Shown piece after piece: positions 1-24,700 of a stretch of DNA of 30,521 bases. The position numbers and the translations under genes are program-made. Within the stretch, counting starts at the first letter, position 1, and every line of letters begins with the position of its first letter. The stretch comes from a virus, in IMG/VR virus record IMGVR_UViG_3300037963_003232, positions 14,487 through 45,007 of that record; one strand, given 5' to 3'. A model generated the notes under the pieces. The model was not told the DNA's origin. It saw only the letters and a list, made by a program, of their open reading frames with translations, and did not search any database.

Positions 1-1957
1 CTAATGTTGGAGAAACAGTATATCCAATACCAGCATCTGTAAAATAGACGGAAGTAACTGTACCTGCTGCAGAAACATTAACTTTTCCAGTTGCTACTGT
101 AGTACCAGCACCAACAGCAGTTGGAAGTGAGAATGTTACTGAGGGGTCAAAGTTATATCCAGACCCCTCACTAGTAATTCCAATTGAACCAATGCCTGCA
201 TAAGTAGTATTTATTACAACACTTGCAGTTGCTCCAACACCAGTTGCTCCAGCAATTGTAACATTGGGAACAGTAGTATAACCAGCACCTGGATTTGTAA
301 TATAAATTTCTTTTACGGAACAGAATCCGCCAATGCAAGATGTTATGGCAACAGCGGTTGCCTGAACAACTGCTGCTGGAGGATCAATTGTCACTGTAGG
401 TGCTTCTGTATAATTTTGTCCAGAACTTGTGAGAGTTATTCCTGTGACAACATTATCATCATTAAATACTACAGTTCCGGTTGCTGGATCTCTTTCAGCA
501 TCTTGAAAAAGTATGGTATTTGGTTGATTCTTGCTTGTAGAAGTTGGTAAAGTTGGTTGTGTATTTGAACCATCGCTACTATATCTCAACTCATCTAAAA
601 ATATTGTTCTGGCAGGGAAAGAACCATCTGGATTTAATACAAATCCATCATCATTCATGAATGTTGTTATAAATTCGCTAGAGTTATATACTGAAGCAAA
701 CGTACCAGAACTTCCCATAAAATGAGTTGAAATTCTATTAGATCCACTATCGTCTTGTGCTAATCTAATCCAATTCCAACGATTTAATTCATTATCACTA
801 ATATCTGCAGCAACTGTTATTGCATCTCTAGTTGCAATAGTATCATCATTTGGTCTATAGTAGAATATGTCATTACGTCCATTATTTTTTTGGACTGTTA
901 ACTCATATTTACTGTTTCCTTCATCATTAGTTCCCCATTTAGCAATAGTCCATTGCTGTCCATCATCTGGAAATCTTGTAAGATAGAACCAAAATTCTAT
1001 TGCCCCAGGTTCTCTATCTGTAACACCAAGAGTTGAAATTGTTGTTCCAGCTAAATATTGCTCACCACCATCATAAGACCTAGACCCAAACTTGACTATT
1101 GTAGTTTCATTTCCTCCACCAGTGGGATTAGAAAAAGTGACATTTGGTGTAGTTAAGTAACCAGGATAATATCCACCATTTGTAATTGTGGTGCCTGTAA
1201 CTTTTCCTACATTGTCTACAGTTACAGTTGCTGCAGCTCCAACAGAAGAGGGAGGACTATCAATAGTTACTGTAGGAACTGTAGTATATCCATAACCATC
1301 ATTTGTTAATGTAATTTTTCTAACATATCCTGCAAGACTAGATATTGCTGCTGATGCAAGTGCTCTGGCACCAGATGCAAATAATGTAAGAGTCTTGATA
1401 TATCCATAGTCTTGAAGAGAACTATCTATAGCATTATCAGATGTGGCAACAATTGCACTATCACTATATTCAAATAGTTCACACTTAAGTTCATAAACAT
1501 ATGTTTTCCCTAACTGATAGAAGGGTTGCTCATGCTCAACGAACTTAATTTCAAATAATCTCTGACCTAGAGGAAAATAAATTAAATCACCTTCTCTTGG
1601 CCTTAAAGATGTAGTATTTTCATCATCTGGAATATTCTCTAAGAAAGGTGAGATAAAATCTTCAAATCGTTCTTTGGAAATAATTAAAGTAACCTCATCC
1701 TTTAATTGCATTCCAAATTTACTTAGTATATCTCCACTTCCACTGTAACCCTCATAGTTACTTAAGTATGCCTCAATCATATACTTTTCTGTAAATCTGG
1801 CAGAAGAAACTTCTTCTATTACAGTTTCTCTCCTTATCATTCTTTGAGGCATGTAAGCAACTTCCATACCATACATGGAAAGTTGCTCATTAATTAACTC
1901 TTGGATAAGTCTCTGCTCAGATTCTGAACCGTGCAGGAAGAACGGATTTAATGCCAT
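1..1957 (-). CDS. 14: gp14-like neck protein, enlarged, 3' end beyond the window
   Basis: Partial gene: the frame is open for 652 codons from the ATG at 1957 to the left edge. The N-terminus (MALNPFFLHGSESEQRL) and the next ~180 residues, including RPREGDLIYFPLGQRLFEIK, look like T4-type gp14, which with gp13 forms the neck closing the head and joining the tail. T4 gp14 is about 256 residues, so this protein is at least 2.5 times longer. Beyond residue ~200 come GxGYTTVP-type repeats (about 205-275), then a segment at about 282-475 with EFWFYLTRFPDDGQQWTIAKWG that resembles a LamG/concanavalin A-like sandwich, then more GxGY repeats (about 505-652) running off the edge. The start lies two bases after the gp13 stop, with AGG upstream. 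The gp14 assignment rests on N-terminal similarity and synteny. The lectin-like fold is my inference from the residue pattern. Confidence 0.82.
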   Translation of the reverse strand, partial: MALNPFFLHGSESEQRLIQELINEQLSMYGMEVAYMPQRMIRRETVIEEVSSARFTEKYMIEAYLSNYEGYSGSGDILSKFGMQLKDEVTLIISKERFEDFISPFLENIPDDENTTSLRPREGDLIYFPLGQRLFEIKFVEHEQPFYQLGKTYVYELKCELFEYSDSAIVATSDNAIDSSLQDYGYIKTLTLFASGARALASAAISSLAGYVRKITLTNDGYGYTTVPTVTIDSPPSSVGAAATVTVDNVGKVTGTTITNGGYYPGYLTTPNVTFSNPTGGGNETTIVKFGSRSYDGGEQYLAGTTISTLGVTDREPGAIEFWFYLTRFPDDGQQWTIAKWGTNDEGNSKYELTVQKNNGRNDIFYYRPNDDTIATRDAITVAADISDNELNRWNWIRLAQDDSGSNRISTHFMGSSGTFASVYNSSEFITTFMNDDGFVLNPDGSFPARTIFLDELRYSSDGSNTQPTLPTSTSKNQPNTILFQDAERDPATGTVVFNDDNVVTGITLTSSGQNYTEAPTVTIDPPAAVVQATAVAITSCIGGFCSVKEIYITNPGAGYTTVPNVTIAGATGVGATASVVINTTYAGIGSIGITSEGSGYNFDPSVTFSLPTAVGAGTTVATGKVNVSAAGTVTSVYFTDAGIGYTVSPTL

Positions 1958-1959
1958 AA

Positions 1960-2832
1960 TTAACCTATAAAGTCATATGGTGGTAGTTCGTATTCTGATG
2001 CCATTTTTTGTTGTAGAGCAGTTAACTCTCTTTCCGCATCATCATATATTTCTCTTCCATTTAATTCAACACCACCAGGAAGCTTAACTCCTCTAAATTT
2101 CAATAGATTTTGTCCCCATTGTCTTTTAATTAGAGCAGTCAAATATTTTTTAATAAAACTATCATTATATATTTGTGTAAATGATGCTGGATCTAGTGCT
2201 CTATAACAATCTAAAACAATAAAATCGTCTACTTGCTGTGATCCCCAATCAATATCCAAATATAATCTATCTTGCCTTTTATTAAATCGTACTTGCTTAT
2301 CAGTAGTCAACATATGATCGATATCTTCAAGATATCTCTTAGTCATAGAATACTGAAGTAACTCTACAGAGTTAAAATAATATAAATCATTCAAAAATAG
2401 TTGATATTTAATACTAAACATTCCACCAGAAATAGAACTAGTGTCAAATTTAAATATTCTTTCAACACCAATTACAGATTCTGGTACTTGAATAAAATTA
2501 GAATTTTCGTAAAAATTGGATGTTACTGTACCAAGACCAGACACATTTGTAGAAGTTCCCGTGGTTGTTACAATACCAACTCCAGATGTACCTCCTACTG
2601 TCGTGCCTCCAGCAGTCGTTACACCTCTGCCTCTATCAATATCATCTTGAGATATCTTATACTTAAGGTACATTCTTTCAACACCATCAAAATGACGCTC
2701 ATTAAAAAACTGAATAGCGTCATCAACTAAATCATCTAGTTGATCATCATCTACATTTATTTCTAAGACGGGATATCCAAGTCTTCTTAAACAATAATCT
2801 ATTAATCCTTGCCTGGTTGATGGTTTTGCCAT
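1960..2832 (-). CDS. 13: gp13-like neck protein
   Basis: Homologue of the T4 neck protein gp13 (about 309 residues; this one is 290). With gp14 it would complete the filled head and form the joining surface for the tail. The N-terminus has the family-like pattern STRQGLIDYCLRRLGYPVLE followed by INVDDDQLDD and an acidic FF..RHFDG helix. A segment at about residues 68-107 is almost only Gly, Thr, Ser and Val (VTTAGGTTVGGTSGVG), apparently inserted before the conserved VPESVIGVERIFKF stretch. The C-terminal half (LYYFNSVELLQYSMTKRY, YLDIDWGS, RQWGQNLLKFRGVKLPGG) reads like the rest of the family. It begins three bases after the 114-residue gene and ends two bases before gp14, consistent with coupled translation of a 13-14 pair as in T4. 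Confidence 0.85.
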   Translation of the reverse strand: MAKPSTRQGLIDYCLRRLGYPVLEINVDDDQLDDLVDDAIQFFNERHFDGVERMYLKYKISQDDIDRGRGVTTAGGTTVGGTSGVGIVTTTGTSTNVSGLGTVTSNFYENSNFIQVPESVIGVERIFKFDTSSISGGMFSIKYQLFLNDLYYFNSVELLQYSMTKRYLEDIDHMLTTDKQVRFNKRQDRLYLDIDWGSQQVDDFIVLDCYRALDPASFTQIYNDSFIKKYLTALIKRQWGQNLLKFRGVKLPGGVELNGREIYDDAERELTALQQKMASEYELPPYDFIG

Positions 2833-3379: not shown

Positions 3380-3572
3380 TGATTAACTCCTTTAGTAGAG
3401 ATTTGATTTCACTCACATCATTTTTAAGATTTTCAATTTCTTTTCTGGTATTAATTCTGTTTTGTGATCCGTTAATATACTGTTGATAACCACTGTTATC
3501 TTTATTGATGATTGCACCAGTCTCCACATCTCTGTAAAGGTGTGGAGAACCTTCTACTCTTACTAATTTCAT
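3366..3572 (-). CDS. 68-residue protein with C-terminal coiled coil
   Basis: The first ~30 residues (VRVEGSPHLYRDVETGAIIN) form a compact beta-hairpin-like stretch with an aromatic and Asp/Glu pattern. Residues ~38-66 (RKEIENLKNDVSEIKSLLKE) form a clear heptad coiled coil. The start overlaps the DUF4815 stop by one base (TAATG), so it is probably translated by reinitiation. Its own last codons hold the Shine-Dalgarno sequence of the next gene. Such a hairpin-plus-coiled-coil peptide could be a small oligomeric virion or chaperone protein, but no family is identified. That it is a gene is supported by the tight coupling on both sides and ordinary codon use. Confidence 0.75.
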   Translation of the reverse strand: MKLVRVEGSPHLYRDVETGAIINKDNSGYQQYINGSQNRINTRKEIENLKNDVSEIKSLLKELINESR

Positions 3573-6500
3573 TATGCTAAAGCGATTGCGCGAATGTCTT
3601 GGAATCTAGGATACCTATTCATTTCAGTTGAGGACATTACAATTTTAATGGTGAATCCTATAAATGGACCAACATTAGCTGCAGTGTACTCATGCTGTAA
3701 AAACTGATTTTCTGTAGTACTTGGAGTATATACATCAGGTAATCCACTATTCTTAGAAGGATCTAAGACATCTAGATATCCATCAGTGTCTAAATCTACA
3801 CCCAAGTTATCATAACCTGGGAACATTTCAAAATTAGGAGATGCAGATCTAACTTCAGGTCTAATTAGAGAATACATAACTCTAAAATCAGCAGACTCAC
3901 TTCTGTTCGCATTTACTAAAACTCTTAGTGTATTTGAAGGTTGTTGTAATCTTACAGTTTTAGAAATATACATTGCTTCATGTGGATCATCTGATATAGA
4001 GGCAGTTCTATTATCTTGAACATAATCACTAATTGGATTATTAATTCTATGCTTAGAGTACTCAGCAGAGATATTATCTATGAATACCATTGGAGATAAT
4101 TTATAGTCAGCGGTAGCAAGTCTTAATCCAAGAATACTAGATCTATTTCTAGGAATGTCTGTCAAAAATTCATCTGCATTTGGTTTAGATGCAATCATCC
4201 GTAATGAATTCAGATTATTTGGACGATTCAGAACAACATCAGTATAAGGTTGATCTACGAATGATACTTCAGATCCACTCACACTAGTAGCGGTAATAGT
4301 TCTAACTTGTGCTGTTACTTGAGCAGATGCTCCTGGTATTATAGCAGAAATCAATGGATTTACAGTGTCATATATTACATTCTCACTAATGAATATATTG
4401 CCACCTCCAACAGATGTTTCGGAATTGAAAGATAGTATTTGACCATAGGTTGCACTATCTATAGATCTAGATAATCCAACATCATCTCCTTCCCTATTAG
4501 TTGCTCCTGAGGGAACTTTGATATAGTAAGAATCTAAATCAAGTCCAGTATCTGCAATATCATGTATAGTGTTAATTCTTCTCAATGATACTCCACCAAC
4601 TTCATATTTTTGTATTGAAGATCCACTAGCATGTGCAACAGCAACTGTACCTCCTGTTCCTCTAGTTACACCACCAATTTCAGATCCTGTTGCACTTGTA
4701 TAAGTAACAAGTTCATTGTTAATAACTAAGTATCCAGGATTTGTAGAACTTACTGCTTGACCTTCAAAAGTTTCAAATTTGGATATATCATTTGAGTCGA
4801 TACTGATTGCTTGTGCAGTTCTGCTTAAATCTGAAGTCATTTTAACAACAGAAGTATCGGGAGTTACACCAGAAATCTTAAGGACATTATTTGAAGAATT
4901 CATTCCATGATCAAAATGATTAACCTTCATGTAATCACCAGTATAGTATCCATCGTATGTGGCACTACTAACGATATTAGTAAGTCCCAGACCAATAGAA
5001 GATCCTCCATCATAATAAGCAAGATTTTTTCCGACAGTAAATGATTGGGGTGCTTGAGTTATGTATAGAGTATCAATACTATTTCCATCTGCAGTGACAG
5101 ACAGTCTTGCTCCATTACCACTTAGAGAACCAGTTCCTGAAGTCGTAATTCCAACTACATCACCAATTTGATATCCTCTCCCCACAGAATTTACGGTAGC
5201 TCCAGTAACGGTACCACTAGTAACACTGAGATCTACAGTCAATCCAGATCCATTTCCAGTAATGTTAAATGTGCTTACATTTGTAGATGATCCAGAGTAT
5301 CCAGAACCTCCAGTGTCAATACCAACACCACTTGCTTGACTTCCACGAGATTCAACAATACCACTTACAAAAGATTTGGCACCACTACCTGCTTCACCAA
5401 TCTTTCTTCCAGGAGATAATGTTGATATTAAACCAGCATCTGTAATTGTATCAATGCCTACTTTAAGTTTTCTTGGAAGAATTGTTAATGGATTTGGAGT
5501 CAAATTTCTTTCGTAAGAATTTGATCTTGAAAGATCGGCATTTCCAAGATATAAGATACCTTCTGATTCGGTAAATTCTGCCTTATATAACTTAAACTTA
5601 AGATCTTCATATTGATCAGCAGTCCAAGTAGATCCATTTTGAGACTTGAATAAACTTCCAATTGCAAACTGACGTGTATATCTAACACTTTCAACATCAG
5701 GAAGAGTACTAGTGTTTAAAGTCTTTTCTCCCATTCTAGCAGTAAAGACTCTATACTCATCGCTCTCAGGTGCTAATAAAACAATAGCATATTCATCATT
5801 TGGTGGTAAGAATATTGGATATGGGAAATCAATATGTGTTGCTACAGTTCCATCTGTAGATACATTGTCTCTAAGGATGGTAGTAGTTCCGTTTACTCTA
5901 TCAGTTGGTCTAAGTGTTACGGGATCTCCAATAACAGTTAGTGTTGGAGTACCAAATTCAGTTGTTCTAATTTGAATTGTAACTGGAGCATTGCCAGGAT
6001 CTACTGTTTGGAAATATAAATCTAATCCAGTTAAGAAAGCTCCTTTCTCATCATTTCCATTACCATCTGGTAAAGAATTGAGTGTTCTAGTATTACCAAC
6101 AATAAAGGTTTGTGCCAGAGGATCTCTATACCTTTGTTGCTCGGTAATTTGATTAATATTATTAGTAACTCTAGTTATATTAGTTACATTAGTTACATTA
6201 GTAGTGTTAAATTCTTGTGTGATGAAATTTTGAATTGGAGTTGGGGTGTCAATAGTTCCTATAGATTCTCCCCTTGTTGCAGTTAGTGTTTGAGTTCTAA
6301 TATTATTATTAGTGGTTAAGTTTGCACTTAAGTCAGTAATTCTAATTGTATTTTGGAAAGAATTTACTGTGCCTTCTGAGACATAAGTAGCTTCTGCAGA
6401 TGAAATTTCATTAGAACCAACAACTCCATCAGAATTTTGAGGACTAGAAGAGAGTTTGAATGTCTTAGATCCGGTAGAAACTCTTAGTGGTGGTGCTGGT

Positions 6501-9500
6501 ACAGCATTAGGATCTCTAATAAAGAATGTACCAATAATATCTCCATAATTATCTGATACTAATCTAATATCTTTGACATAAGCAGTAGACTGACTACTTT
6601 CTCCAATTAATAATGCACGTTTTACTAGATAACCTCCATAAAGTTCGCCATTACCATCATCAGATAATGACAATGTATCAATATTTAAAATAGTTGATGA
6701 TTGGTTATATCCAGAAGGTACAACCTCATTCTTATTGTATGGATTAACGTCATAAGTTAAAATTGGATCATCATAAGGTCCGGACTTATGATTAGATGCT
6801 GCAAGCCTGAAGGACATGATGAAATTGCCGTCATTCCAGACTTGAATCCTTTCTCCTACTTCAAAAACACCATTGGTTCCATTATCTGTTAGTAGAATGT
6901 CTTTTGTTACTTCAACTAGTTTTGGTGTAATATCAATATTGCCAAATCCATCTAAGAATGGATAATATCTTGTAAATGCTTTTAAATTGGATGAAGAGAA
7001 TTGTGTATTTCTAGATCTCATAAAGAGATCTTTTTTACTATCAACGAATGTTCTTTCTATTGAAGATGCTATATCTCGATCTGATGATGTTGTAGTTTGA
7101 GTATCAATACTCGTAGTTGCCATATTCAAATTCAAGAATGTATCCCTGAATTGATTTTCACCTAATCCCTGATCTCCCGCAGTTGCTCCACCAGCATTGT
7201 GTAAATTAGTTCTTTGTGTATCAATATTAGATTCTAAGTTTAAAGATAATGTATGTCTGATAGTATTATCAGAAAGTTGTACAGTTCTAACCCATATATC
7301 TCTAAATGGATTTAAACGAATATCTCCAACATATTGAATAACGTGGAAAGGATTTACATTTTCAGATCTAGTAGCTAAAACTTGTTCATGCCAATCTACA
7401 GAATTATAGTCTAATGTTACTACTTGACCAGACTTTTTAACTCTACTATCAAGTAATTCATAATTTTTTGATGAATCAAATGTTTCTGAAGATATATTTT
7501 CTTTTGTTAAAATTTTATAGGGAATTACATTTTGAGATCTAACGGGAGTTAACTCACCTGCTAGTAGGTCAACCTCACACCTAGAAAAAGTTTGATTGAT
7601 TAAAGATGAATTTGAGAATGAATCTGCAAAAAATCCAGTTTTAAATCTATCTAATCCATCAGCATCTCTTATTTGAAGTGTTTGTGTATTAACTTCTAGC
7701 AAAGATAGTGAAGTTACTTCTTCTAAGTTACTAATTCTAGTTTCGAGAGAACCGATATCTCTCATAGTATATCTTCTATTATCAATTGTATCAATTCTAA
7801 TATCAGATGTGTCATATACATACGCTGGAATTACCATTGAAGCTAATTCCAAAACATCAGTATTTTTCTTGGGTTGTTTTGGTTCTAAAGATGGAACTCC
7901 TTGCTCAATAGCAAAAGCTCCTGAAGGATCTAAGAAAAGTTTATCAATCCTAGGAAGATAAACATCATAACTAATAATAGACGCTTGATTGGGTGTAATA
8001 ATTACCTTTGGTGTAGATCCAAAAAGTCTGCCATTCTCGGAGAACGGCGAAGTAGTTGATCCGCTAAAATAAGTAACTCTTGGTCTAAAATCTAAAATGT
8101 CGGATGCCCTAACACCAAATTTTCCTACATTTGGTATTGTTGTTCCATAATCTCCAGAAATATAACTCGATACAGTATAAACATCTCCAACATCACTATC
8201 ATCTAAGTGATAGCGATCAAATACTACCTTTAGTTTTCTAGATGGTTCTGGTTGACCTTTAACTCTTACTAAACGAGAATAATCATAATATTCATCTTTA
8301 TGTCCTTTTTCCAAATTGAAAGAAGATGTTATATCTTTATATGATCCTGGTGTAGTAGATTCTATTACCGCCTTAAGATCACTTGTTTCAAAAATAACTT
8401 CTTCATTCAATTGGAATTTTTCAGTATTTAAATGAACTATTCTTGCACCATTAGTTGTTTTATCTACAACTTGTGCAACAGCATTACTAGATAAACCCCT
8501 TACCCTTTCTCCAACTAAAATATTATCACCCACACTATAAAGTGAAGAGAAATTTAGAGTGTCAAAAGTAACATCAGAATCAATTGCTTCATAAACTGCA
8601 ACTACCCTTACTACATCAGGATAACGCAAACAAATTTCTTCATCCTGAACTCTTAATCCATAGAAACGATTATAAGTTAGACCATCATTATTTGATGAAC
8701 TGGCATCTGTTCCAGATCTCTCATACTTAGATAAACTTACGTCTAATGTTTCACTTTGTTTGTATACTTTGGTTTTACTTTGAATACCACTTTTTATGAA
8801 TGTAGCATTAATTGCATATAAAGTTTTATTTGCAATATTGTTAAATGTTGCAGTCGTAAAATTATTTGAAAATATTACTTGACCATCTACTAATCTTTGT
8901 ATAGTACCATCGGCGTAAATAATTGAATACTTTTCAGGATCAAAGGTATCAAATTTTATGTTTCCAGAATTTCCTGGTAATGTAAAATCAGTAGTTGATA
9001 TTGACAATGTATTGCCACTAACAGTGGTATTTGTAATTGCTTGTGATGTAAATGTTAGTTGAGATCCTTCAAGATCAACAGAAGCTAAATTACTATTTGG
9101 TAGTAAAGAATATAGATAACTTCTTTCTGGGAATTTGATTGAAGAAGAACCAATTCTAAAATTTACAGATTCAATAGTTCCACTATTACCATCTGTACCA
9201 GATGGAACTCTACCTAAATTAACACCAGCAGTAATATCAGTAGGAACTAATGTTAGGGTAAACTCATTTACTGCGCTAACACGATTAAAAATTTCCTCAG
9301 TTTCTCCAGGAATATTATATCTTACAATAGTATCTGAAGAAATACCGGTAAATCCTTTTGTAGATTTTAAAGTCGCTTCGGTATCATCAACTCTCACAAT
9401 ACTTACAGTATCGCCAAAACTATATCCGGGAGGGACAACTTTATCGAGAATTGAATCTGCAAAGAAATTTGTAGTTCCACTACTATCATAAACAGATTTT

Positions 9501-11134
9501 AAATCTGCAATAGTAAATACTCTTAAAGATTTAATACTTCTTTTATTCTCTGAGACACCATCAATATGAATAACTTCATTCTGTACAAATCTTCCAGAAT
9601 CTACTCTAATTTTTAAAGTAGTTGTTCCATCGCCATCAGAAATTGCATATCCAATAGCACCACTACTCTGTCCAACAACTCTAGATCCTCCTTTTATTTG
9701 ACTAGAGGATAATGATGCACCTAATGTAAACTCTGTATAGAAATTTATATCATATAAAAATATATCCCAAGGAGTTGTATTATTACTATAAGCACTATCG
9801 GATACTTTAAAGGTATAAACTTTTGCATCTCCAATAGATTCACTTCCAGCTGTTGGAGCTGAGTTAGAACCTCTTCTACGATCGTAAAAAGTTACAGTAT
9901 TTTTTAATGTAGGAGATCCATAAACATTATTTACTCTAAGAATATTTCCCATATCAAATGGGACTAGAATATCATCAATAGTTGCAGTGTCTCTTGTTTT
10001 TGGAACATCTATTACTGTACTAATAGTCTTAGTAATATCATATCCTTTAACATAGGCCTTTCCAGGACCTAGTGTTACACACATCATGTCATCAGATGGA
10101 TCATTCCCCATTGATGTTGTATCACCTTCAAAGTATTTTCCATTATTTCCTACATAATCATTTAATGAATTATTTACAGAAATATCAAATGGTTCTACAG
10201 TATAGTTTCCAGACTCATCATGTGTTCTTTTCGCAAGATAATCTCTAATCTTATTATAATTACTATCTACTTCTTGAATTTTTTCTAAAACACCGCCTCT
10301 AACTCTAAGTAACTCTACGAAATTAGTATCGTTGTATTCTCCAAGCGGTTTTTTTGTTAGAGTGAGTTCAATTTGAAATCTATCTGCTCCAGGTGATGAA
10401 AAATTATTAAATCCTTTTGCATTATCATAAAGAGATTTGTCAGATTTTGCAGTTACAATCTTTTCATTGACATTTAATCCAACTCTATATGAAGGAAACT
10501 TTGAATAGTAATCAAGAATTAATGTTTGTTTTAAAACAGATACAAAACTACCTCTAATGAAGTAAATGCCATTATCAATAGATACTGCAGATCCTGTTGC
10601 AGTTGCATCACTTGAAAGTAATGATGCAAATGGTGATCCTGCAGTAATAATTACATTATTAATACCATAAGAAATATCTTCAGTTGAGAGTAGAGACTCT
10701 CCATCTATAAAAGTTCCACCAGAAAGAGTATCACCAGACTCTAGATACTTTACATAGAGTGTGATATCCGAAATATCGTTATTTGGAAGTACAACATTTT
10801 TAATAACGGCACGCAATCCAGAAGCCTGTCCCTGAATTCTCTTACCAATAAATTTATCAATGTATTGTGAAATTTCAATTCCAAATGATGTTGGATTTAC
10901 TTTAACGGCACTATAAGCGGAGTCATAATGTATGCTTCCGGGTATAACTTTAGATCCTTCTTTAAATACATGACTGCCAAAAGATTCAATTTGATTTTGT
11001 AAAATCGATTGAATCGTATTTAATTCTCTAGACTGAATAGGTCTACCAGGATTAAAAAGAACCTTATAAAAATTCTTTTCAGCATCAAAATCATCAAAAT
11101 AAGGATTGATGTTAAAGTTTGTTTTTTGTGCCAT
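3572..11134 (-). CDS. Giant DUF4815-type virion structural protein (2520 aa)
   Basis: The N-terminus (INPYFDDFDAEKNFYKVLFN, then PGRPIQSRELNTIQSILQNQ and GSHVFKEGSKVIPGS) has the DUF4815 signature seen in large structural proteins of marine T4-like phages. Further family-like blocks are DYSRLVRVKGQPEPSRKLKV with DILDFRPRVTYFSG near residue ~1000, RRYTMRDIGSLETRISNLEE near ~1120, and DPLAQTFIVGN...YFQTVDPGNAPVTIQIRTTE near ~1680-1730. The C-terminus ends YPRFQDIRAIALA. Residues ~1643-1665 form an Asn/Val/Thr triplet repeat. SGA-type modules (GQASGLRAVI, GQSSGAIGYAI, GLSSNAVAQVV), a GxGY repeat pair near 1930-1990, and a VINNELVTY...VTRGTGGT module are shared with gp7 and gp8. It occupies the T4 9-10-11-12-wac position, so it is probably the outer baseplate or fibre-like organ, which is inference. 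No clear Shine-Dalgarno; it starts four bases after the gp8 stop. Confidence 0.85.
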   Translation of the reverse strand: MAQKTNFNINPYFDDFDAEKNFYKVLFNPGRPIQSRELNTIQSILQNQIESFGSHVFKEGSKVIPGSIHYDSAYSAVKVNPTSFGIEISQYIDKFIGKRIQGQASGLRAVIKNVVLPNNDISDITLYVKYLESGDTLSGGTFIDGESLLSTEDISYGINNVIITAGSPFASLLSSDATATGSAVSIDNGIYFIRGSFVSVLKQTLILDYYSKFPSYRVGLNVNEKIVTAKSDKSLYDNAKGFNNFSSPGADRFQIELTLTKKPLGEYNDTNFVELLRVRGGVLEKIQEVDSNYNKIRDYLAKRTHDESGNYTVEPFDISVNNSLNDYVGNNGKYFEGDTTSMGNDPSDDMMCVTLGPGKAYVKGYDITKTISTVIDVPKTRDTATIDDILVPFDMGNILRVNNVYGSPTLKNTVTFYDRRRGSNSAPTAGSESIGDAKVYTFKVSDSAYSNNTTPWDIFLYDINFYTEFTLGASLSSSQIKGGSRVVGQSSGAIGYAISDGDGTTTLKIRVDSGRFVQNEVIHIDGVSENKRSIKSLRVFTIADLKSVYDSSGTTNFFADSILDKVVPPGYSFGDTVSIVRVDDTEATLKSTKGFTGISSDTIVRYNIPGETEEIFNRVSAVNEFTLTLVPTDITAGVNLGRVPSGTDGNSGTIESVNFRIGSSSIKFPERSYLYSLLPNSNLASVDLEGSQLTFTSQAITNTTVSGNTLSISTTDFTLPGNSGNIKFDTFDPEKYSIIYADGTIQRLVDGQVIFSNNFTTATFNNIANKTLYAINATFIKSGIQSKTKVYKQSETLDVSLSKYERSGTDASSSNNDGLTYNRFYGLRVQDEEICLRYPDVVRVVAVYEAIDSDVTFDTLNFSSLYSVGDNILVGERVRGLSSNAVAQVVDKTTNGARIVHLNTEKFQLNEEVIFETSDLKAVIESTTPGSYKDITSSFNLEKGHKDEYYDYSRLVRVKGQPEPSRKLKVVFDRYHLDDSDVGDVYTVSSYISGDYGTTIPNVGKFGVRASDILDFRPRVTYFSGSTTSPFSENGRLFGSTPKVIITPNQASIISYDVYLPRIDKLFLDPSGAFAIEQGVPSLEPKQPKKNTDVLELASMVIPAYVYDTSDIRIDTIDNRRYTMRDIGSLETRISNLEEVTSLSLLEVNTQTLQIRDADGLDRFKTGFFADSFSNSSLINQTFSRCEVDLLAGELTPVRSQNVIPYKILTKENISSETFDSSKNYELLDSRVKKSGQVVTLDYNSVDWHEQVLATRSENVNPFHVIQYVGDIRLNPFRDIWVRTVQLSDNTIRHTLSLNLESNIDTQRTNLHNAGGATAGDQGLGENQFRDTFLNLNMATTSIDTQTTTSSDRDIASSIERTFVDSKKDLFMRSRNTQFSSSNLKAFTRYYPFLDGFGNIDITPKLVEVTKDILLTDNGTNGVFEVGERIQVWNDGNFIMSFRLAASNHKSGPYDDPILTYDVNPYNKNEVVPSGYNQSSTILNIDTLSLSDDGNGELYGGYLVKRALLIGESSQSTAYVKDIRLVSDNYGDIIGTFFIRDPNAVPAPPLRVSTGSKTFKLSSSPQNSDGVVGSNEISSAEATYVSEGTVNSFQNTIRITDLSANLTTNNNIRTQTLTATRGESIGTIDTPTPIQNFITQEFNTTNVTNVTNITRVTNNINQITEQQRYRDPLAQTFIVGNTRTLNSLPDGNGNDEKGAFLTGLDLYFQTVDPGNAPVTIQIRTTEFGTPTLTVIGDPVTLRPTDRVNGTTTILRDNVSTDGTVATHIDFPYPIFLPPNDEYAIVLLAPESDEYRVFTARMGEKTLNTSTLPDVESVRYTRQFAIGSLFKSQNGSTWTADQYEDLKFKLYKAEFTESEGILYLGNADLSRSNSYERNLTPNPLTILPRKLKVGIDTITDAGLISTLSPGRKIGEAGSGAKSFVSGIVESRGSQASGVGIDTGGSGYSGSSTNVSTFNITGNGSGLTVDLSVTSGTVTGATVNSVGRGYQIGDVVGITTSGTGSLSGNGARLSVTADGNSIDTLYITQAPQSFTVGKNLAYYDGGSSIGLGLTNIVSSATYDGYYTGDYMKVNHFDHGMNSSNNVLKISGVTPDTSVVKMTSDLSRTAQAISIDSNDISKFETFEGQAVSSTNPGYLVINNELVTYTSATGSEIGGVTRGTGGTVAVAHASGSSIQKYEVGGVSLRRINTIHDIADTGLDLDSYYIKVPSGATNREGDDVGLSRSIDSATYGQILSFNSETSVGGGNIFISENVIYDTVNPLISAIIPGASAQVTAQVRTITATSVSGSEVSFVDQPYTDVVLNRPNNLNSLRMIASKPNADEFLTDIPRNRSSILGLRLATADYKLSPMVFIDNISAEYSKHRINNPISDYVQDNRTASISDDPHEAMYISKTVRLQQPSNTLRVLVNANRSESADFRVMYSLIRPEVRSASPNFEMFPGYDNLGVDLDTDGYLDVLDPSKNSGLPDVYTPSTTENQFLQHEYTAANVGPFIGFTIKIVMSSTEMNRYPRFQDIRAIALA
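6155..6205. repeat. Short tandem repeat (ATTAGTTAC) coding an Asn-Val-Thr run
   Basis: Two perfect 9-base copies at 6179-6196, flanked by degenerate copies. In the coding strand they give repeated Val-Thr-Asn (NVTNVTNITRVTNNINQ) in the DUF4815 protein. This looks like slippage-derived expansion of a linker, just before the DPLAQTF module. It is a protein-level linker and not a regulatory repeat. Confidence 0.6.
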
Positions 11135-12739: not shown

Positions 12740-15700
12740 TTACGATGATCTGCTAATTAAAGCACCAGTCTTTCTCAATCCATTATTGGATCCTTTTCTC
12801 TTCACTAATCCATATGTCCCAAGACCAGATACAGTGTAACTAGTTACTGCAAACGATACTGGATTAGATCCTCTACTAAATCCACTAATTTTTCCGAAGG
12901 AAAACTTACCAACGGGAGATAATGCTGTTCCTGTAATTCCATCCACAAGATCGCCACTTATATTGGTAGTGCTTAAGATATTACAGGTTATTATACCTGT
13001 GTTAGTATCAATATATTGAACTTTATATACACAATCTAATGCAGTAGTTCCAATACCAACTGTATCAGTATCATTAAAATCGATGGATGTAATTCCCTCA
13101 CCTATTGAGGTTCCGTAAATATAAATTGGTTGGCCAACACTTATATCACTGTAGTCACCTTGATTTTTGGTAGTTTCTCTTAATTGGAATGATAAAGCAA
13201 GTTCTGCACCACCAATACCTGGAGTCGTACCAATACCAAGAATATTTCCATAGAGTCCAACAACTACATCAGCATTAGTAATTCTTTCCTCATTATATTC
13301 TGGAAAATCTACTACAACTTGAGGTGGATTTGTGGATGTATATCCAGAACCTGGATTTACAATATCAGCAGAAGTTATTACTCCATCAGTTATTGTAACT
13401 GTTGCTGTTGCAGTGCTTCCAACACCAACAGAACCTCTTGATAATGTCCCAAAGTTAAATGTAGTTTCAATTTCAGTTGTATTTGTCGATAATTTTGAAA
13501 TCGTTACCAATCCAACATTCCCACCGGGATTAGAAATTTCTAATACTGTTGTACCTGAAAGAATCAAATCCTTAGTTATGGAATTAACAGAATCTCCAAT
13601 GTTAATATTATTATAATTTTCGACCAGAATTTGATTTGAATTAATTCCAACAGACCCTGTAGTTGTTGCAGAATATGTGTCTGGAGTACCAATTCCAACA
13701 GAGTACCAAGATCTATCATCTCCAATACCAATTATTGGATTTGAAATCTTAACTCTTGCTGCAGAAGTATATCCAATACCAGCATCTACAATATTCAATT
13801 GAGAAATAGTTCCTGCAGCAGAAACTGTTGCTGTAATAACTCCAACTTTATTATTAATTTGATATGGAATTAAATCAATATCAATTGGTTTAGATGAAGC
13901 CTTTTCTTCATAATTAAATAAATTTGCATTATCAACATATAGTACAGTATCTGTAGTATTTAAATCTGATATAATTTTAGCAGTTGGATAAATTTGTGGT
14001 TCAACTGCTTGTCTAGATTTTGAATAAGTTATTTCATTAATAATTACATCCTCTCTCTGTTTTATCCAATCTACAGGTTTGTATACATTATCATTAATAC
14101 CATCACCAGTATACAGACTAGTTTCAACAATATCTGAAGCAACAATATCAAATACCATTCTTGGATCTTGAGCAAGAGTATTATCATCAATCTTATTAAT
14201 TTTTAGAATATCACCAACTTTGATTGTTTCATTCACATCAATTCTACTAGAGTCCTCACCTCTAGTTCCAACATAGAAGAATACTTTAACATCATCATTT
14301 GGTTTTGGTGCTGTAGTGAATCTAAATGATGACCCACCATTAAACTCATAAGCATATCCAGGTTTTTGAAGTATTCCATTAACAAAAATTACTAATAGAC
14401 TGTTAAAATCAATATCTAAAGAGTCTGAATTTTCAGTATCTTTTTGGAAAGAAAGCAACTCAGTTTGATAATATAGGGGATACTGCAATCTCTTACCATT
14501 TTGATATGGTTTAAGATCATCAATTCTGTTCAATTCTCCAAATTGCCATGCAGCAACAGAGTCTTTATAAGTATCAAGAACATATAATTGGAACTTTTCG
14601 AGTGGTTCAGATAGACTCTTATCGGTTACTAGACCAACTACAGTAAGTACATCTCCATTTTGGAATCCATAACCCTCCCTAGAAACTTCAAATTTTGAAA
14701 CTTCAAATAATGTAGATCCAACACCTACCCTGTTCAATGCGGGGCCAACATCTACACTTACTCGCATATTTACACCAACTTCAGTAGTCTGACCCACTCC
14801 AAGTCGTGAAACACCAATAACCTCAAGATTGCCATAAGATGGATCATCAATATCTAATATTGGTTGTGTATAATTAGAACCTGCAGAAGAAACTGTAAAT
14901 CCTAAAGTTCCACCAGCACCAACAGTCACGTCAATTTCACCGCCAGAACCCACCATAGATCCTACATTTACAGAAATAGTGTCACTTGTATATGAGGTAA
15001 TAGCGGTTGCAATGCCTGCGGCAGGATCAGTTGCTCTTGGATATCCAATTTCTCTTACATGAGAATCTGAAGAGCATGTGAAGTATATTGAACCAGTTGT
15101 TAGTGTTACAAAATCACTATCAGTCAGACCATGATTTTCCATAGTAAGAACCATGACACCAGTCGTAGGTTCATAAGTTGCAAACGTTGGTGTAAAAGTA
15201 ACACTACTACCCTGAACACCTACAGATTCATCATTAGTTCTCACAAATTTGTGCTCGTAATCTTCAGCAGCGTCTCTTAAAGATACCGATACTGGACTTC
15301 TGTATCCAGAACCTTCAGTTAAATCAGAATACCAAGGATAAACCGTACCATATCCAACATAATAATGTTCTAATGTGGATATTCCAACGTCAACAGTTAC
15401 TGTAGTTGCTCCTATACCAATAATGTCGCGTGGTTTGTCATCATCAAGTTGTGGGAATGAAATGACTGTACCATTTCCAGAATTGCATGTAAATGATAAT
15501 CCAACAAGTCTAACATGATTAACTTTTGGTTGTACCAGTTTATAGATTTCTGACTCTGTACTCACAATTGTCAAAGTTCCATTTTCATTATCATATTTTG
15601 CCGTTGTAATTGCAACAGTATCTCCACTAGTTCCTCCAACGCTAACTACATTTTGAATCCCACCAAGAGAATCTTTCTCTAATCTAACTTTAGCACCAAC

Positions 15701-18700
15701 TAAAGGAGCAAAACCTAGACCAGCACTAGATCCAAGAGAAACAATAATTCCACCTCTAGGTAATTGGTTTTGGTTAACATCAGATTCTGAAATTTGAGTT
15801 TTTCCATTTGATGTTGTAACGCCGGTAAATGTTATCGTAGTTATTCCAAGAGAATCATTAGAAGAAAGTTTAAAATTAAAGTCTGTAACATTTTCTGTTT
15901 CGGGAGTTTGTAGAATACCATTTAAAAATAGCATTCCATTACCTGATGTAGTTCCCAATCCAACTGTACTAACTCCTAATGTTTTTAATTCAAATGAAGT
16001 GGTTTTGCCATCAAAATCATCTGAAAAATCATCGTAAATATCATTAGTACTATAATCTTTTCTTAAAAAGGTTCTTCCTTGGAAAGTTGCTCTTGCTCTT
16101 AAAAGATTTCTTTCATCCTTAGATGCTAAGTCACCAATATTTCCTCTTGGAGGATTCGTGAAATGTAATTCATCACCAACAATATTGTAAGAACCTCTAT
16201 ATAAGTATGCAACATCGCCAAGAGTATGTGTTGTTGCTGCACTACCAACAACACCTCTTTCAACAGAAACGATATTTTTATCACCACTGAAATATAATAT
16301 TGGGCCTTTAGATGTAGTACCGATTCCAACATTAGAAATTTTCATATATTCATCATTCACCTTAAGAATATCTTGAGGTCCTAGTGATGAAATTCCAGTT
16401 AAACTAAAGAAACTATCAGCAACACCAACATTCACATCAAGATTGTGAGTAATTCCAGTGTATAATAATGGATATTGTGCTAAATCATTGACTGTAATCA
16501 AAGTTTTTTCATTCTTCACATACATCTCAAGCATATGAGCATTACCTTCACCAAGATCTGATGGATTAAATGTTATCTGAGTTTGAGTCTCTGCATTAGA
16601 TGTGCTTGATGCTATTTGGAATGTATTATTATCAATTTTAATAGCATAAACCTCAGTTGGAAGATCAGTATTAGAACTAGTCTTCATAGCACGTTTGCCA
16701 ATACCAATAAACGTGGATCCTGGTGTGTAAATTAGTCTTTCACCAGTGCTGAAGAAATGATTATCTATATTGAATGTTCCAGTTGCTGGATCTAATATAT
16801 CCGAATCTGCAGGATCAAATGTTTTGGCATAAATTGGAGTACGTTCATACTCCAATCTAAAATTAGTTCTATCAATATTAGGAGAATTGACACCAAAGAA
16901 TTTTGCTACGGATTGAGTTTCTAAGAGATTTCCATATTGCAATGGTTGTGGTTTATTCAATTCATCTAAGAAACTATAGAACTTATAATCTAATTGAGTA
17001 ATTTGAACATCAGAGTTACTATATTCAGTATTTCTTTCAAAACGTAATTCTAAGTTTGCACCATTTATGACTGATGTAAATTCTCCAATTGTATCATAGT
17101 TGTCACTTCTTCCAGAAGAAACTACAGGTGATTCGACAATGTAAGAATCAGTACCGTCATGTAAATTAATAATTTCATGAAAATCAATTTTATCATTAAC
17201 AGCAACTCTAACAAAAGATTTAATAGAAGAAAAATTATCTTTTGGATATGTTCTTGTTGTGGTAAAACCAGTTTCAGTTCCAGTAGAAATAACTGAATTG
17301 TCTATAATTGCAGTTCTTTCAGATCCTGCAGACTGATTTTTAGTTAAGTATCTGTAAGTACTAGTTCCGCCCGCATAATCTCCAAAAGCATAAGTTTTTG
17401 TATTTACACGTACAGACGATCCATCTAAAGACTGGAAATATAGTTCAAGATTGGAACCGCTCTTTTCAGCTGACAAAGTTCCAATACCTACCAGAGATGA
17501 TATATCATCTTCAGTAGATTCAAAATCATATTTTGTTTCAATAACATTTGTACCATCATATATTGTAGTCATTTCTACATACTCACTTGTATTAAAAGTG
17601 AGATTTTCAATATGAGCTTCTGTAAATAGTACATTATATTCGGAAGCATCAAATGTGTTTAGAACTACTTTATCTGTAGTTGCTAAATTAGTAGTGTCTG
17701 CAAAAATATTAACAGAACCAAAACTTTGTGAACCTTGATTATCAACAGAAGAACTAGTTGTACTTGAAAGTATCTTTATCTCATAATCAAAATCAGCAGT
17801 ATTTTCTGGAATAAATTGTAAATTTAAAAGTCCAACATCATTAGTAAACATCTCTAAAGATGCATAATGTGAAGGCTTTGAATTAACTGCTTTATTCGAG
17901 TGATTTGATTTGGATATAAAGTATACGTTTGCACTTCCATCATAAAGAGCAATAACTTCATTAAATTGTATATGATTATATGTTTCATTATCTATGGATT
18001 TTGTTTGCACTAAAAACTTATAACAGGATCTTCTTTCAGGCAAACTCTTAGCAATAATTTTAGAATCAAAGGATTCATCATCAGAACTAGAGAACTGACC
18101 AGCAATATTGTCTATATTTAAAACTCTATTAGTCTCTGCTCTAAAGAAATCTGATAGTTGTATATTTTTAAACTTGATAAATTTAGAAGTATCATTAACA
18201 GGATCTTCATCCAATACATTATCAAAGTTTTTAATAACATCAACTCTACTCTGTCTGATGAAAGATTGAATGTTTTCTAAAATGCTATCTTTCGCTCTAT
18301 TATCAGTTACTCCAGCATCTGTAGCGATTCCTGTAATTTGAGTATCTGCAAAGTTCTTTGTACCGATTGGGTGTACGGTAGAATTTACAGGTTCTTTAAT
18401 TTCATCCCAAGTTTTTTCACTTCTTATTGTATATGATAAGTTTTGATAATAATCATTATCAGCAATGAATTGAGTATCAGAATTAAGTTTTCCAGATTCT
18501 CCAACCCACCCATAATCTCTTATAGCTGATGCTTCAATAGTAAATTGTCCACTTATAGAGTCAAATGCATCAATTACTGCAATAGTGCCTGATGAAAGTC
18601 CTTTTACAGTATCACCAACAAATACATCTGAATCTCCCAATAACTTAACATAATTTTTATTAGACTTAGTTATTTTTAAATCACTATTTACATATATTCC

Positions 18701-21700
18701 AGTATCACGATCTAATATAGATATTGATTCATTTTCAAAGAAAAGTCCAGGTTCTTGTTCAACTCTAAACAGAGGATAATTATCTTTTTTAAGAATGCCT
18801 GCAAAAGAATCAATTTGGAAAGTAACAGCAACACCTGGGTTTCCATATAGTTTTGGAATCTGCAAGGTAACTTCACCAGGATTAGAATCTGCAACATAAT
18901 CAATAACTTCAAAGAAGGCATATCCATGATCTTTTGAATTAAAACCTACACCAGTATCGGTAAGAGATTCAATGTTTTCAATGAACACTTCGTCTCCAAC
19001 TTGGAATGGATCATTTCCATATCCAAGAATGGGTGTTTTTAGTAAGCAAGTAAAATGTCTACTGTCCGAAATTGAAGGAGTAACTTTATCAATTCTAATT
19101 GCATTTGAATTTTCTACTGCTCTGATGGTTACTGGTGTTGAAGGCAATCCATTTAAAGGAGTTTGAATTTCAACATCCTCAATATTTGAATTTCCTAGTG
19201 TACTTCCAGACATAACTGGAAGTAATAATCCCTGATCAATTTCTATACCTGTATCAGTATCTACAACCACCAATTTTGGTGCATTAGGATATCCAGATCC
19301 ACCTTGAACTATTGATATTGATTTTAAAACTTGAGAATTTTTAATATTAGCATTTAATGATGTTTTTGTTGAAGGTGAAATAGTTCTATCAACAGAATAT
19401 TCAAATCCAGAATTTAAATCAACTTTGTTTATAATTTTACCAATACTTGTAGATCTTGGTAAAATGGATAGTCCAGATCCCTCCTGAGAATCGCTGCCTT
19501 CAAATACTGGCAGATCATTATAATTAATTCCACCACTTTCAATTTTTGTACTAGATACAGATCCATTCGCAGTCTTTGAGGTGGTATCATATTTAATTAC
19601 ACTACAATCCGAATCAGAGTATGATGGTCTTTCTGGAGTATTAGATAAGTAAATGCTATAATTTAAATCTTCAACATCAGTTATTTCGTATACTCCATTA
19701 TAATGACTCACTGTGCTGAATATTTTTGGTTTATTTTCAGTATAGTTTATTTTTTCATCATTACCATCTACTAGAGCATAATATAAATTATCTGGAACTG
19801 TATTGTCATATTTTAATGATATAGTTGCAGTACTTCCCAAACCTACAGCACCAACTCTTGTTATCGGGAATTGTGTAGATATTCCAGATACAAATTCATT
19901 TTTACATTCATTATCATAATAGAATTTTATATTATAACCCTCTAAAGAGGCATCTGATACGTCAAAGAAAAGAGTATTATTTCTTATAGCACTGATATTA
20001 GAATCCAAAAGTTTAATCTCATGATTTCCGCTGCCAGAATCTACAAATTTTATAGTGGTTGATGGTTTTGAAATAGATTCTTTATAAGTTTCTGAAAGTT
20101 TAATAGTATCAATATCAACTTTACTTACATAATAAGCCGTTTCACTATCAATACCAGAGGGAATATCAGATCCAACAAAACTAACTCTTTCGCCTCCATT
20201 TAATAGGTGATTTTCAATAGTTATTTCGTTAGTATCAGAATTTACATCACCAGCCGATACAACAAATGTTTTAAAACTTATTGATTTAAACTTTGAAATA
20301 TATTCAGTATTCAAAATAGTACTATTTCCAATACCGGTTTGTATATCGGGAACAACTTCAATTTTAACAAAATCTCTATCTTTTAATCCATGAACTGTAG
20401 AAACAGATACTGTTGACTTATTTTGGTATATTATTGCAGTTTCTTCCTCAACTGCAGATTCAAGACTGTATTCAAAATTATTTGACCCAGCATTAATACC
20501 ATTAGCAAAAATCAGACCATCAGTTGTAGAAGCAGCATCAATGCTTGTCTGAATACCTATTATATCATCAGTTTTTTTAATTACATATAATACTTCTTGG
20601 TTATTTACAGCAAGAAGATTTTTTGTACTTGTAGGATTATCATTCATCTGAATAGTAATGTTTCCAGATGAACTATTTGCTTTCCTCATTATAACTTTTT
20701 CACGATCCTTAAATCCATGATTGGGGATATATAATGAACGAGTTGGTATAGTTTTTGTTATACGTCTTGTTCCAATATGGAATGAAATTGTACTATTAAC
20801 TCCAGACCATGTTCCAATACCAATAGATTGTTGTGGATTAAAATATCTCTTATAGTTAAATTTTAAATCATTATCAGGGAGTAAAGCATCTATCTTGACA
20901 GTATGTGGTAAAAATTCAATTTCAGTAGTAGCAGAACATAATCCAACCCCTCCAGTTTTTCTACATCTAATAATATTATCTTCTTTAAATGAATTTAGAA
21001 TTGTGTAATGCTGATAATAAGCATCATCACCACCAAATGGTTTAAGTCTTATAGAACTTCCAATTGAAACTCTTGTTGGAAGACTATCTAATTTAATATC
21101 AGTAACGATACCACTTCTACTTTGATGATAAACACCAGCAGATGCATTGTAATCACGTTGCACTATTTCATCTGTTGCCCTTGTTGTAAATTGGTCTACA
21201 CTTGCAATATGATCACCATTCAATTCTGCAAACTCGGTAGATAATCCGGTAATAGTAACTTTAGTATTTGGTCTTAGATTGTGTGATGGTAAAATGTAGA
21301 ATATACTTCCATCAGTTCCATTTGGATATAAATTAGAATTAGAATATTTTAGACTTGTATTTGTAATTGATGTTATTGGTTTTCCTTCAAGAGATTCAAC
21401 CTTTACAGATAACCCATTTCCAGTACCGTTAGTTGTAAAGTTAAGTTTATCACCTACTTGATAATTTTTTCCTGCAGAAGTTATTCCTATCTGATCAATA
21501 CTTCCTTTAGTTACACTTATAATTTCGGAAGTTTGATTTATTGTTGCTCTATTGATGGGGAAGAAATCATATGTTGCATATAAATCCTTAGATTTGTATG
21601 GGAATGTATTTCTTAAAAGATCACTATTATTAAAATCAAAAGAGTGCGACAGTGAAGCATCAACATTCTCTCTAATTAAAGGACTTCTATATGTCAATCC

Positions 21701-24700
21701 TACAAAATATGGGAATGTTCCAACATATTGCTGCTCAGTATTCAATCTTGCAGTAGCAAAATATGCATATACACCATTTGGATATTCTGGAGTAATACAC
21801 CATCTGCCATTGTAACGATCTAAATCTCCAGATCCATCATACTTATAATCTTCAACAAAATATGAAGAATTTGGATCACTTATATTAAATACGGAGTTTG
21901 TAGGTCTATTCTCAACATTATCAGTATCTTTTACATAACTAGACTTTATTAATCTGATGGTAGATATTTTTTCTGGATTCTCATATCCAAAAGGACCATA
22001 GATTGGATTGCCGTCATAAGCCCACCCAATGATAGGAGAGTGTACATTAGGATCTTCATTAAATTCCGATTTCAGTAGATCTGAATATCCTGTTACCGCA
22101 TACTGTAAAACTTCTCTATTATTTTTATAAAGTAATTCGTATGAGGGATCTCTATAGTTATCATATTGAACACCATACTTGTATGCAGTGTCTACAATAA
22201 GACTTCTAATACTTATATCTGCTACAAAATCTTTTCCATCAAAACTAGGAACAATTTCAATATCTTCATATGAATAATTAAGTCCACCTTCAATAACTTT
22301 TACAGATGCTACTGAACCATTACTTATTATAGCTCTCAATTCTGCACCGATACCCTTATCACTAATAACTTTTAAATCTGGTGTAGATTTATAATCATAT
22401 CCACCATAATTTATTTCAACTCTTTCAATTTTTCCTTCTGTTATAATTGGTCTAAAAGATGCCTCTCTTCCTTGAACAACTTCAACAATAGGGGATTCTT
22501 CAACATTTAATGTAGTAGATCCATAATTAGATCCTTTTTCGTACAAGTAAGCACCGACGATAGAACCCTTTATAACAGGAGTTGCAGTAATAGGACTAAC
22601 TGTTCTTTCACCATCTACAATATATGAAACATCAATAGAAATATCTGGATAATCAAAATACTGGTATCCGATACCACTAGAAGCAATAGAGACATATTTT
22701 TCTCTATCATAAAATGAAGTATCGGTTCCGCCAATTCCGGCATCGCATAGTCTAAAAGAATGATCATCTACTTTTAGAATATAGTATTGATTAGATGTTG
22801 AAAGTCCTGAAATAGGAGAAGTTTCGTAATCATATTTTACCAACTCTCCATCAGAAAATCCATGATTAACAAATGCAATTCTATCTGTAATTGTAGAAAT
22901 TCCGGACTGATTAAGTGTTAGTTTTCTGCTTGTATATCCTTCTCCAGGATTTTCAACTACAATATTGGATAAAATCTTTCTTGCATCAGTTCTAAACTTA
23001 TGAATACCAAAATTACCTTCAGTAGATAAACCTACCGTGTTTATACCAGCTCTATAGTCACTTAATGATGGATGTATTCTAATAGTTGATGAATTTACTA
23101 CCTTAGCATAGTAAGAAGTATTATTTTCTAAGTATGTACCATCAGTTTGATTTGCTCCACCAAAAGTAGAAATTCCGATTTTTGGATTATTAATGTTGTC
23201 AGAAATGTAATATATTTTCTGACCATTATAAAAGTTATGATCGGTTAGGAATGTAATTGTATCATCATCTTCATCTATACCACCACCATCATTAAGAGGT
23301 CTTGCATTGAAAGGTACTTCCCTTGATACTACTTTTGTTTGAGGTTGCAAACTAGCATTTCTTCCATTACCACCAGATATAGTAACCTTTATAGGTTCAT
23401 TTACATCAAACTCCATGGGATCAACAAAAACCTTTTCAATTTTTCCTTGAACAACAGGTTGAATTTTTGCATCACCACTGATTCTTAACTCGGGTGGGTT
23501 AATTACATCATATCCACTTCCACCATTATAAACATCAACTGATGATAAAGGTCCATAGTAAATTTTATCTTGAGTGATAGGACTTAAAATATCGACACCA
23601 TTTACCAGCATTCCTACAAAACCGGCATCAACTTTATCTGTACCACCACCCTCAGTCAGTAAATCATTTAATTTTATTTTTCTGAAACTCTTTGAAGGAT
23701 GAATTTTATTATCATTTGATTGTTGAGAAGATAATGTAAAAGTATGCGTTCCTTCTGGTACTATAGGTCCAGAGTAATTTGTTGGAAAGTAAATGAAATC
23801 ACCAATACTTATAGATGAATTTGATCGATATAATTTTACATATTTTTTATCTTCTACTGTTACATAATAATTTCCACTCTTTAGACCATTGATGGGTTCT
23901 CCAGTATGAGTGTATGTAATCTGATCACCATCAATAAAAGATGTTAGATTATTCAAAATTAATCTATAATATCCATCTTTTAGTGGATTAAAAGACGACA
24001 AGTCTACAGTATCAACAGTAGACTTGATAATATCTTTACTGATCGTATATGATGGAAGAGAATTTGATGCTACATAAAAATTTACTCTATTCTCATCGTA
24101 TAAATTTACGATATTTGTCGTTAGGTTATCATACGCTAAAGGTAGAGAAGTACTTGATGCATACTCTACTTTTCTACGAATATCATATTTTCCATCCGAA
24201 TTTAAACTTGTAAGGCCTTTTCCAAAAATAATTTCATTTCCAGTGACGGCAGTAATTTTTACATCTCCATACCCTTCAGGAACAATCTCACTATTTCTAG
24301 ATAAAAATTCGACAGTATCACCAGTTTTTAAGAAACTCTTATCTAAAGTGACAGGAGTTTCTGCAGTACTACCATCAAAATTGCCAATAATGATTGGAAT
24401 CCTAACACTAGTATTGTAAACAAAACTATTTGCTAGAGTCTGCTTAGGATTGTTATTGTTGGTATTTTTAATCTCCATACCAAGAGAATCTACAATAATC
24501 TTTTCTCCTTCATGACTAATATAATTTGGATTTCCATAAGTCAAATTTAGATTTCTGACTGATCCTAAAAGTCTAAATTCTAGTTTTTTGGAAGTATCAC
24601 CATCTTCATAGGCAAAATAAGTATCATCGGAGTGAATATTTGTTACTTTTGGAATATTTAAATTAATATAGTTATCACCTTCAGTGTAACAATTTAAAAA

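Follow-up and report, generated by a model that had tools for sequence, protein, structure and literature searches.

The gp14 gene and its reading frame

The DNA analysed here, hereafter the window, is a stretch of 30,521 nucleotides covering positions 14487-45007 of the 48.2 kb IMG/VR record IMGVR_UViG_3300037963_003232 (G000). On its minus strand, positions 2..1957 encode residues 1-652 of gp14, a head closure/neck protein, in an ORF that is open at the window edge. The gp13 gene (head-tail adaptor; 1960..2832, minus strand; phrog_211, 3.6e-47) is its upstream neighbour in the neck operon. The protein matched phrog_460 (head closure Hc2) at 2.9e-111. Its core (residues 1-180; 1418..1957, minus strand) was identified by a match of residues 3-184 to T4_neck-protein PF11649 (5.4e-33, 114.9 bits; curated cut-off 25) and of residues 3-169 to the solved T4 gp14 (PDB 9mkb/9lu4; 1.9e-24), which bears out the initial annotation of the first ~200 residues as ordinary gp14. 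The gene order gp13-gp14-gp15, with gp13 upstream and gp15 downstream, was also present. The window phage gp14 is thus a T4-type head-closure/neck protein and, by analogy with T4, would form a hexamer.

As anticipated, the chain continues past residue 652, and its C-terminus was reached by reading the adjoining sequence. The window does not include the codons of the final 105 residues (G000:C1:14158-14476, or L006:3756-4070), which lie beyond a scaffold gap of 10 N that falls inside the gene just left of window base 1 (G000:C1:14477-14486). Contig L006 carries a LamG region (see below) 100% identical to that of the window and has no such gap; here gp14 is one frame of 757 codons, the sequences flanking the N gap abut with zero codons missing, and gp15 follows directly. 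No frame break between the core and the LamG region was therefore found, and gp14 homologues of similar length occur in the isolates S-SSM7 (762 aa) and Sf-FS3 (763 aa). An assembly or annotation error, whereby LamG would not be fused to gp14 in real virions, is suggested by the N gap in the window's own record but can practically be dismissed, as the unbroken L006 frame rules out a false fusion created by that gap, and the same architecture in many independent contigs and in isolate genomes largely refutes an artefact. A second scaffold gap was observed in the same record, where the terminase large subunit frame (L003:8937-10631) meets an N stretch near its end.

Repeat units and the LamG segment of gp14

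An HMM of the GxGY repeat detected six units in the window gp14, at residues 195-232, 239-276, 492-524, 531-569, 571-610 and 616-655, with domain E-values spanning 1e-5 to 7e-16. A search of viral contigs for gp14 cores yielded 80 loci. Complete proteins were mostly 456-483 aa long with approximately four GxGY units at a spacing of ~42 residues, whilst some reached 542-648 aa through extra GxGY units or another segment without LamG. Unit 1 of the window protein (1262..1375, minus strand; 2e-15) corresponds to baseline unit 1 and, by alignment with P-SSM2 gp14, units 4-6 (residues 531-569, 571-610 and 616-652+; 2..367, minus strand; 7e-16 to 2e-9) to baseline units 2-4. The GxGY repeats noted on both sides of the LamG segment are hence real, but they are not special to this protein, since about four occur in nearly all related marine gp14s. 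The units are followed by a small barrel-like segment and then a C-tail, IIDFTETNLFG, which is common to other marine gp14s and, when compared, showed no clear resemblance to T4 gp14. Because this marine gp14 C-tail (IIDFTExNxFG) comes after the LamG segment, the segment is an internal insertion and not, as initially proposed, an extension of gp14.

Several further observations were made on repeats and large proteins in this group. L086, L069 and similar gp14s (546-559 aa) carry an extra segment near the C-terminal barrel that is neither additional GxGY nor LamG. GxGY units were also found in other window proteins, namely a gp53-like protein (residues 252-279) and a 4345 aa single frame (12740-25777; phrog_2885, baseplate wedge), remarkably large among phage structural proteins, that has two clear units near its C-terminus (residues 3975-4006 and 4117-4149). 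The structural operon also encodes a 2520 aa protein (3572-11134) that matches phrog_358 over its whole length.

The inserted LamG/concanavalin A (ConA)-like domain comprises residues 280-478 (~200 residues; 524..1120, minus strand). The window gp14 had no Pfam LamG match (PF13385/Laminin_G_3, curated cut-off), and we therefore relied on fold prediction and homologues. An AlphaFold2 model of residues 258-520, built from an alignment of 15 sequences (m275a2727c8c7), was of moderate quality (pLDDT 67, pTM 0.72), with most of the sandwich at 70-91 and the flanks below 50. In a Foldseek search of the PDB with this model, the top matches were all ConA-like (E 1.7e-5, probability 1.0) and included neurexin LNS, pikachurin LG, agrin and laminin-G domains, with TMt of about 0.5-0.58 for the LNS/LG domains, as well as alginate lyases and lectins. 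The corresponding domain of Sf-FS3 gp14 exceeded the PF13385 (Laminin_G_3) cut-off (31.2 versus 27.6 bits). That of S-SSM7 gp14 also scored 31.2 bits, and these were the sole such matches in either genome in genome-wide scans. We refer to the window-type domain as type 1 and to the S-SSM7-type domain as type 2; profile comparison related the two at 92.7% (E 4.4e-7). Searches of PDB sequences with the LamG profiles returned no ConA-like match, and a model of full-length gp14 had a poor core (pTM 0.46), with T4 gp14 weakly on top in Foldseek and nothing below 0.001. Taken together, a predicted ConA-like/LamG fold for this segment is supported. The LamG-type sandwich proposed for the neck protein has accordingly survived the fold prediction and Foldseek search named beforehand as its check, with the Pfam matches of its homologues in addition.

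A third LamG-like segment was seen in L094 (4001-7063; also L187), within a 1021 aa gp14 with approximately nine GxGY units. It is only weakly related to types 1 and 2 (profile 13%) and was left outside the main claim.

Distribution and exchange of the cassette

The unusual part of the window gp14 is a block of ~280 aa consisting of a GxGY unit, LamG and a GxGY unit (residues 239-524; 386..1243, minus strand), of which unit 2 (1130..1243, minus strand; 1e-5) forms the left part and unit 3 (386..484, minus strand; 3e-7) the right. The same block was found elsewhere in L015, L016, L022, L023 and gp15 of Pelagibacter phage Mosig, at differing sites. In the window it sits between baseline units 1 and 2, and it likewise follows the first baseline unit in L007, S-SSM7 and Sf-FS3, but follows the third in L016, L022 and L023. 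The gp14 of L015 is of the pelagiphage type and has no repeat array; its LamG is flanked by a single GxGY unit at either end (213-234 and 443-479). Mosig has a repeat-free gp14 of 272 aa, and the block forms the C-terminal ~280 residues of gp15 (L010:7092-8690), where it is absent from the annotation. Lengths with and without the cassette were 757 versus 470 aa for gp14, 549 versus 272 aa for pelagiphage-type gp14 and 532 versus about 255 aa for gp15. These add up each time to a block of ~280 residues that fits every site.

Nucleotide and amino acid identities indicated that this block has moved between phages. The gp14 cores of L015 and L016 shared 42% aa and 56% nt identity, compared with 85% aa and 87% nt for their cassettes. 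Between these two genes, nucleotide similarity was detectable only over the block, along 747 nt that are 84.6% identical. For L022 and L023 the values were 68% aa and 70% nt in the core, and 91% aa and 92% nt in the cassette; a second nucleotide comparison gave 66.8% for the core and 86.3% for the block. The Mosig gp15 cassette was 82-83% aa and 86-87% nt identical to the gp14 cassettes of L022 and L023, whereas the gp14 cores of these phages and of Mosig share 42% aa identity, and 552 nt were shared between Mosig gp15 and L022 gp14 at 89.5%. Core and cassette trees of ten sequences rejected each other (AU p 1e-56 and 7e-70). Given that the trees took in ten sequences only, we regard the identity contrast as the stronger argument. 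Chimeric assembly fails as an explanation because the shared sequences are not identical and Mosig is an isolate. We therefore consider this architecture and the modular exchange of the cassette to be very probable.

Among the 80 gp14-core loci, LamG of types 1 or 2 was present on the L007 contig only. Searches for the domains themselves found type 2 in about 150 IMG/VR contigs, type 1 in about ten besides the window's, and LamG on gp14 in several isolate phage records. The complete type 2 proteins among the best 80 were all gp14, and 5'-cut frames with type 2 LamG finished in the gp14 tail. The view that a lectin-like neck module is unusual thus stands insofar as this is a minority state of gp14, but loses force with the number of contigs and isolates that share it and with neck modules known elsewhere. 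Every type 1 or type 2 LamG found lies in gp14 or, for Mosig, gp15. Within these searches, which rest on conserved peptides and could miss diverged copies elsewhere, for example in tail fibres, the cassette is restricted to these neck proteins. No copy of the cassette, and hence no hint of a cellular origin, emerged when 84,980 prokaryote genomes were scanned by pattern.

In 23 type 2 gp14s, dN/dS was 0.12 for LamG, 0.05 for the core and 0.17-0.19 for the repeats, which indicates that purifying selection maintains type 2 LamG. The greater conservation of LamG than of the repeats in these sequences speaks against it being unusually fast-evolving in general. Between the window and L007, LamG was more diverged than the core (51% versus 84%).

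Proposed role at the neck and comparison with known systems

T4 gp14 forms a hexamer, which gates DNA at the neck. Within the virion, residues 178-256 of this protein, which are disordered when the neck is isolated, touch residues 203-245 of gp15 (PMC12270204). We propose that in the marine phages the arm that follows the core barrel of the ring-forming gp14 serves as a display site, into which recombination has placed a self-contained cassette of GxGY unit, LamG and GxGY unit. Six LamG domains would then ring the gp14/gp15 joint, and the T4 arrangement suggests that six copies are probably present at the neck-tail joint of the window phage, with LamG presumably exposed on the surface. The Mosig cassette lies after the matching gp15 region, and would reach the same place from the gp15 C-terminus. 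As an accessory, the ring could bind polysaccharide multivalently and with low affinity, either on particles or on the host's surface. This would increase encounter or lengthen residence before engagement of the tail fibres. We favour such accessory glycan or particle adhesion from the neck position, the lack of detectable fibritin and the precedents for carbohydrate-binding modules (CBMs) at phage necks. Set against it, an upright tail keeps the neck at a great distance from the cell, many LamG-fold domains bind proteins and not sugars, and the neck-fibre CBM of cyanophage A-1(L) (see below) failed to bind its host; we would put this accessory function at slightly short of even odds. The full account, of a display arm, a recombined cassette, a LamG ring and accessory binding, is in our judgement the best overall explanation (probability roughly 0.6).

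The main rival to glycan binding, and a serious one, is that the LamG ring substitutes for whiskers, holding folded-back long tail fibres or sensing conditions in the manner of fibritin in T4. The latter is located on gp13 at the neck and touches the long tail fibres (PMC12270204). Fibritin_C (PF07921), detected in the T4 control at 2.3e-34, had no match in any of four complete marine phage genomes or in G000 (a 48 kb fragment). Most relatives, however, carry gp14 without LamG, including P-SSM2, which also has no detectable fibritin, so the job is feasible without LamG. With a ligand on the phage's own fibres, cassette and fibre type should moreover go together, but cassettes are exchanged between distant phages, and we regard a whisker-like role as unlikely. 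An equally unlikely, but also serious, rival is that the insertion acts as a clamp or spacer that gives the gp14/gp15/sheath joint stiffness or protection, without binding anything outside the virion. This would accord with the conservation of type 2 LamG, with the other gp14s (542-648 aa) that lengthen the same arm using GxGY units or a LamG-free segment, and with the collar of phage Milano, which covers the same region and has been linked to robustness (PMC10491603). On the other hand, the presence and type of cassette vary among related phages and the cassette has moved to another protein, freedoms that a load-bearing part would be less likely to have.

Returning to accessory adhesion, a broader and more tentative proposal, which we consider somewhat doubtful, is that marine T4-like phages may have a dedicated display ring at the gp14/gp15 joint. 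GxGY units would be exchangeable sockets, and lectin-fold domains would pass between two different core proteins of the neck as well as between host groups. Phages without detectable fibritin would thereby possess another adhesion organ, remote from the baseplate. As essential parts of the head-tail joint, gp14 and gp15 are usually treated as conserved markers; in ocean phages they act as carriers of swappable surface domains. Carriers include isolates with cultured hosts, namely Mosig (SAR11) and S-SSM7 and Sf-FS3 (Synechococcus), which opens the role of neck appendages to direct testing with phages and hosts already in culture.

Both lectin-like modules at the neck and the shuffling of domains in phage neck proteins have been described before (PMC10684548). 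In the titles, abstracts and term counts consulted, we found no LamG cassette inside gp14 or gp15 described for marine T4-like phages, and database records name the LamG-bearing proteins only as neck protein, head closure or sheath stabiliser. The neck passage structure (NPS) proteins of lactococcal 936 phages similarly present carbohydrate-binding-type modules at the neck that are shuffled between phages (PMC6669499, PMC4759559, PMC10684548), and one such CBM binds host cells, albeit weakly (PMC6669499). In these siphophages, however, the BppA-type CBMs are carried by NPS, an accessory protein of its own, whereas the LamG domain described here matches LamG folds and lies inside core gp14, or on gp15, of T4-like myoviruses, placing the window protein outside the lactococcal type. 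Cyanophage A-1(L), a cyanobacterial myophage, also displays a CBM from its neck, through the gp82-gp81-gp80 fibre, though this CBM did not bind the host; unlike in the window gp14, the fibre is a separate trimer on a pentadecamer, outside the neck ring protein (PMC10966104). The whiskers of T4 fibritin (wac) are likewise neck appendages, but are separate coiled-coil trimers on gp13 with no sequence relation. Further counterparts are gp14 of the Synechococcus phages S-SSM7 and S-SSM6a and of Sf-FS3 (762-763 aa), which have the same domain order and a type 2 LamG with a PF13385 match, 23-26% identical to that of the window, and are annotated as neck protein or head closure Hc2 with no mention of LamG. 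Mosig EXVC030M gp15 (QOI69014.1) carries the same unit-LamG-unit cassette, its LamG 31-32% identical to the window's, but appended to a tail sheath stabiliser and not inserted into gp14 as in the window phage.
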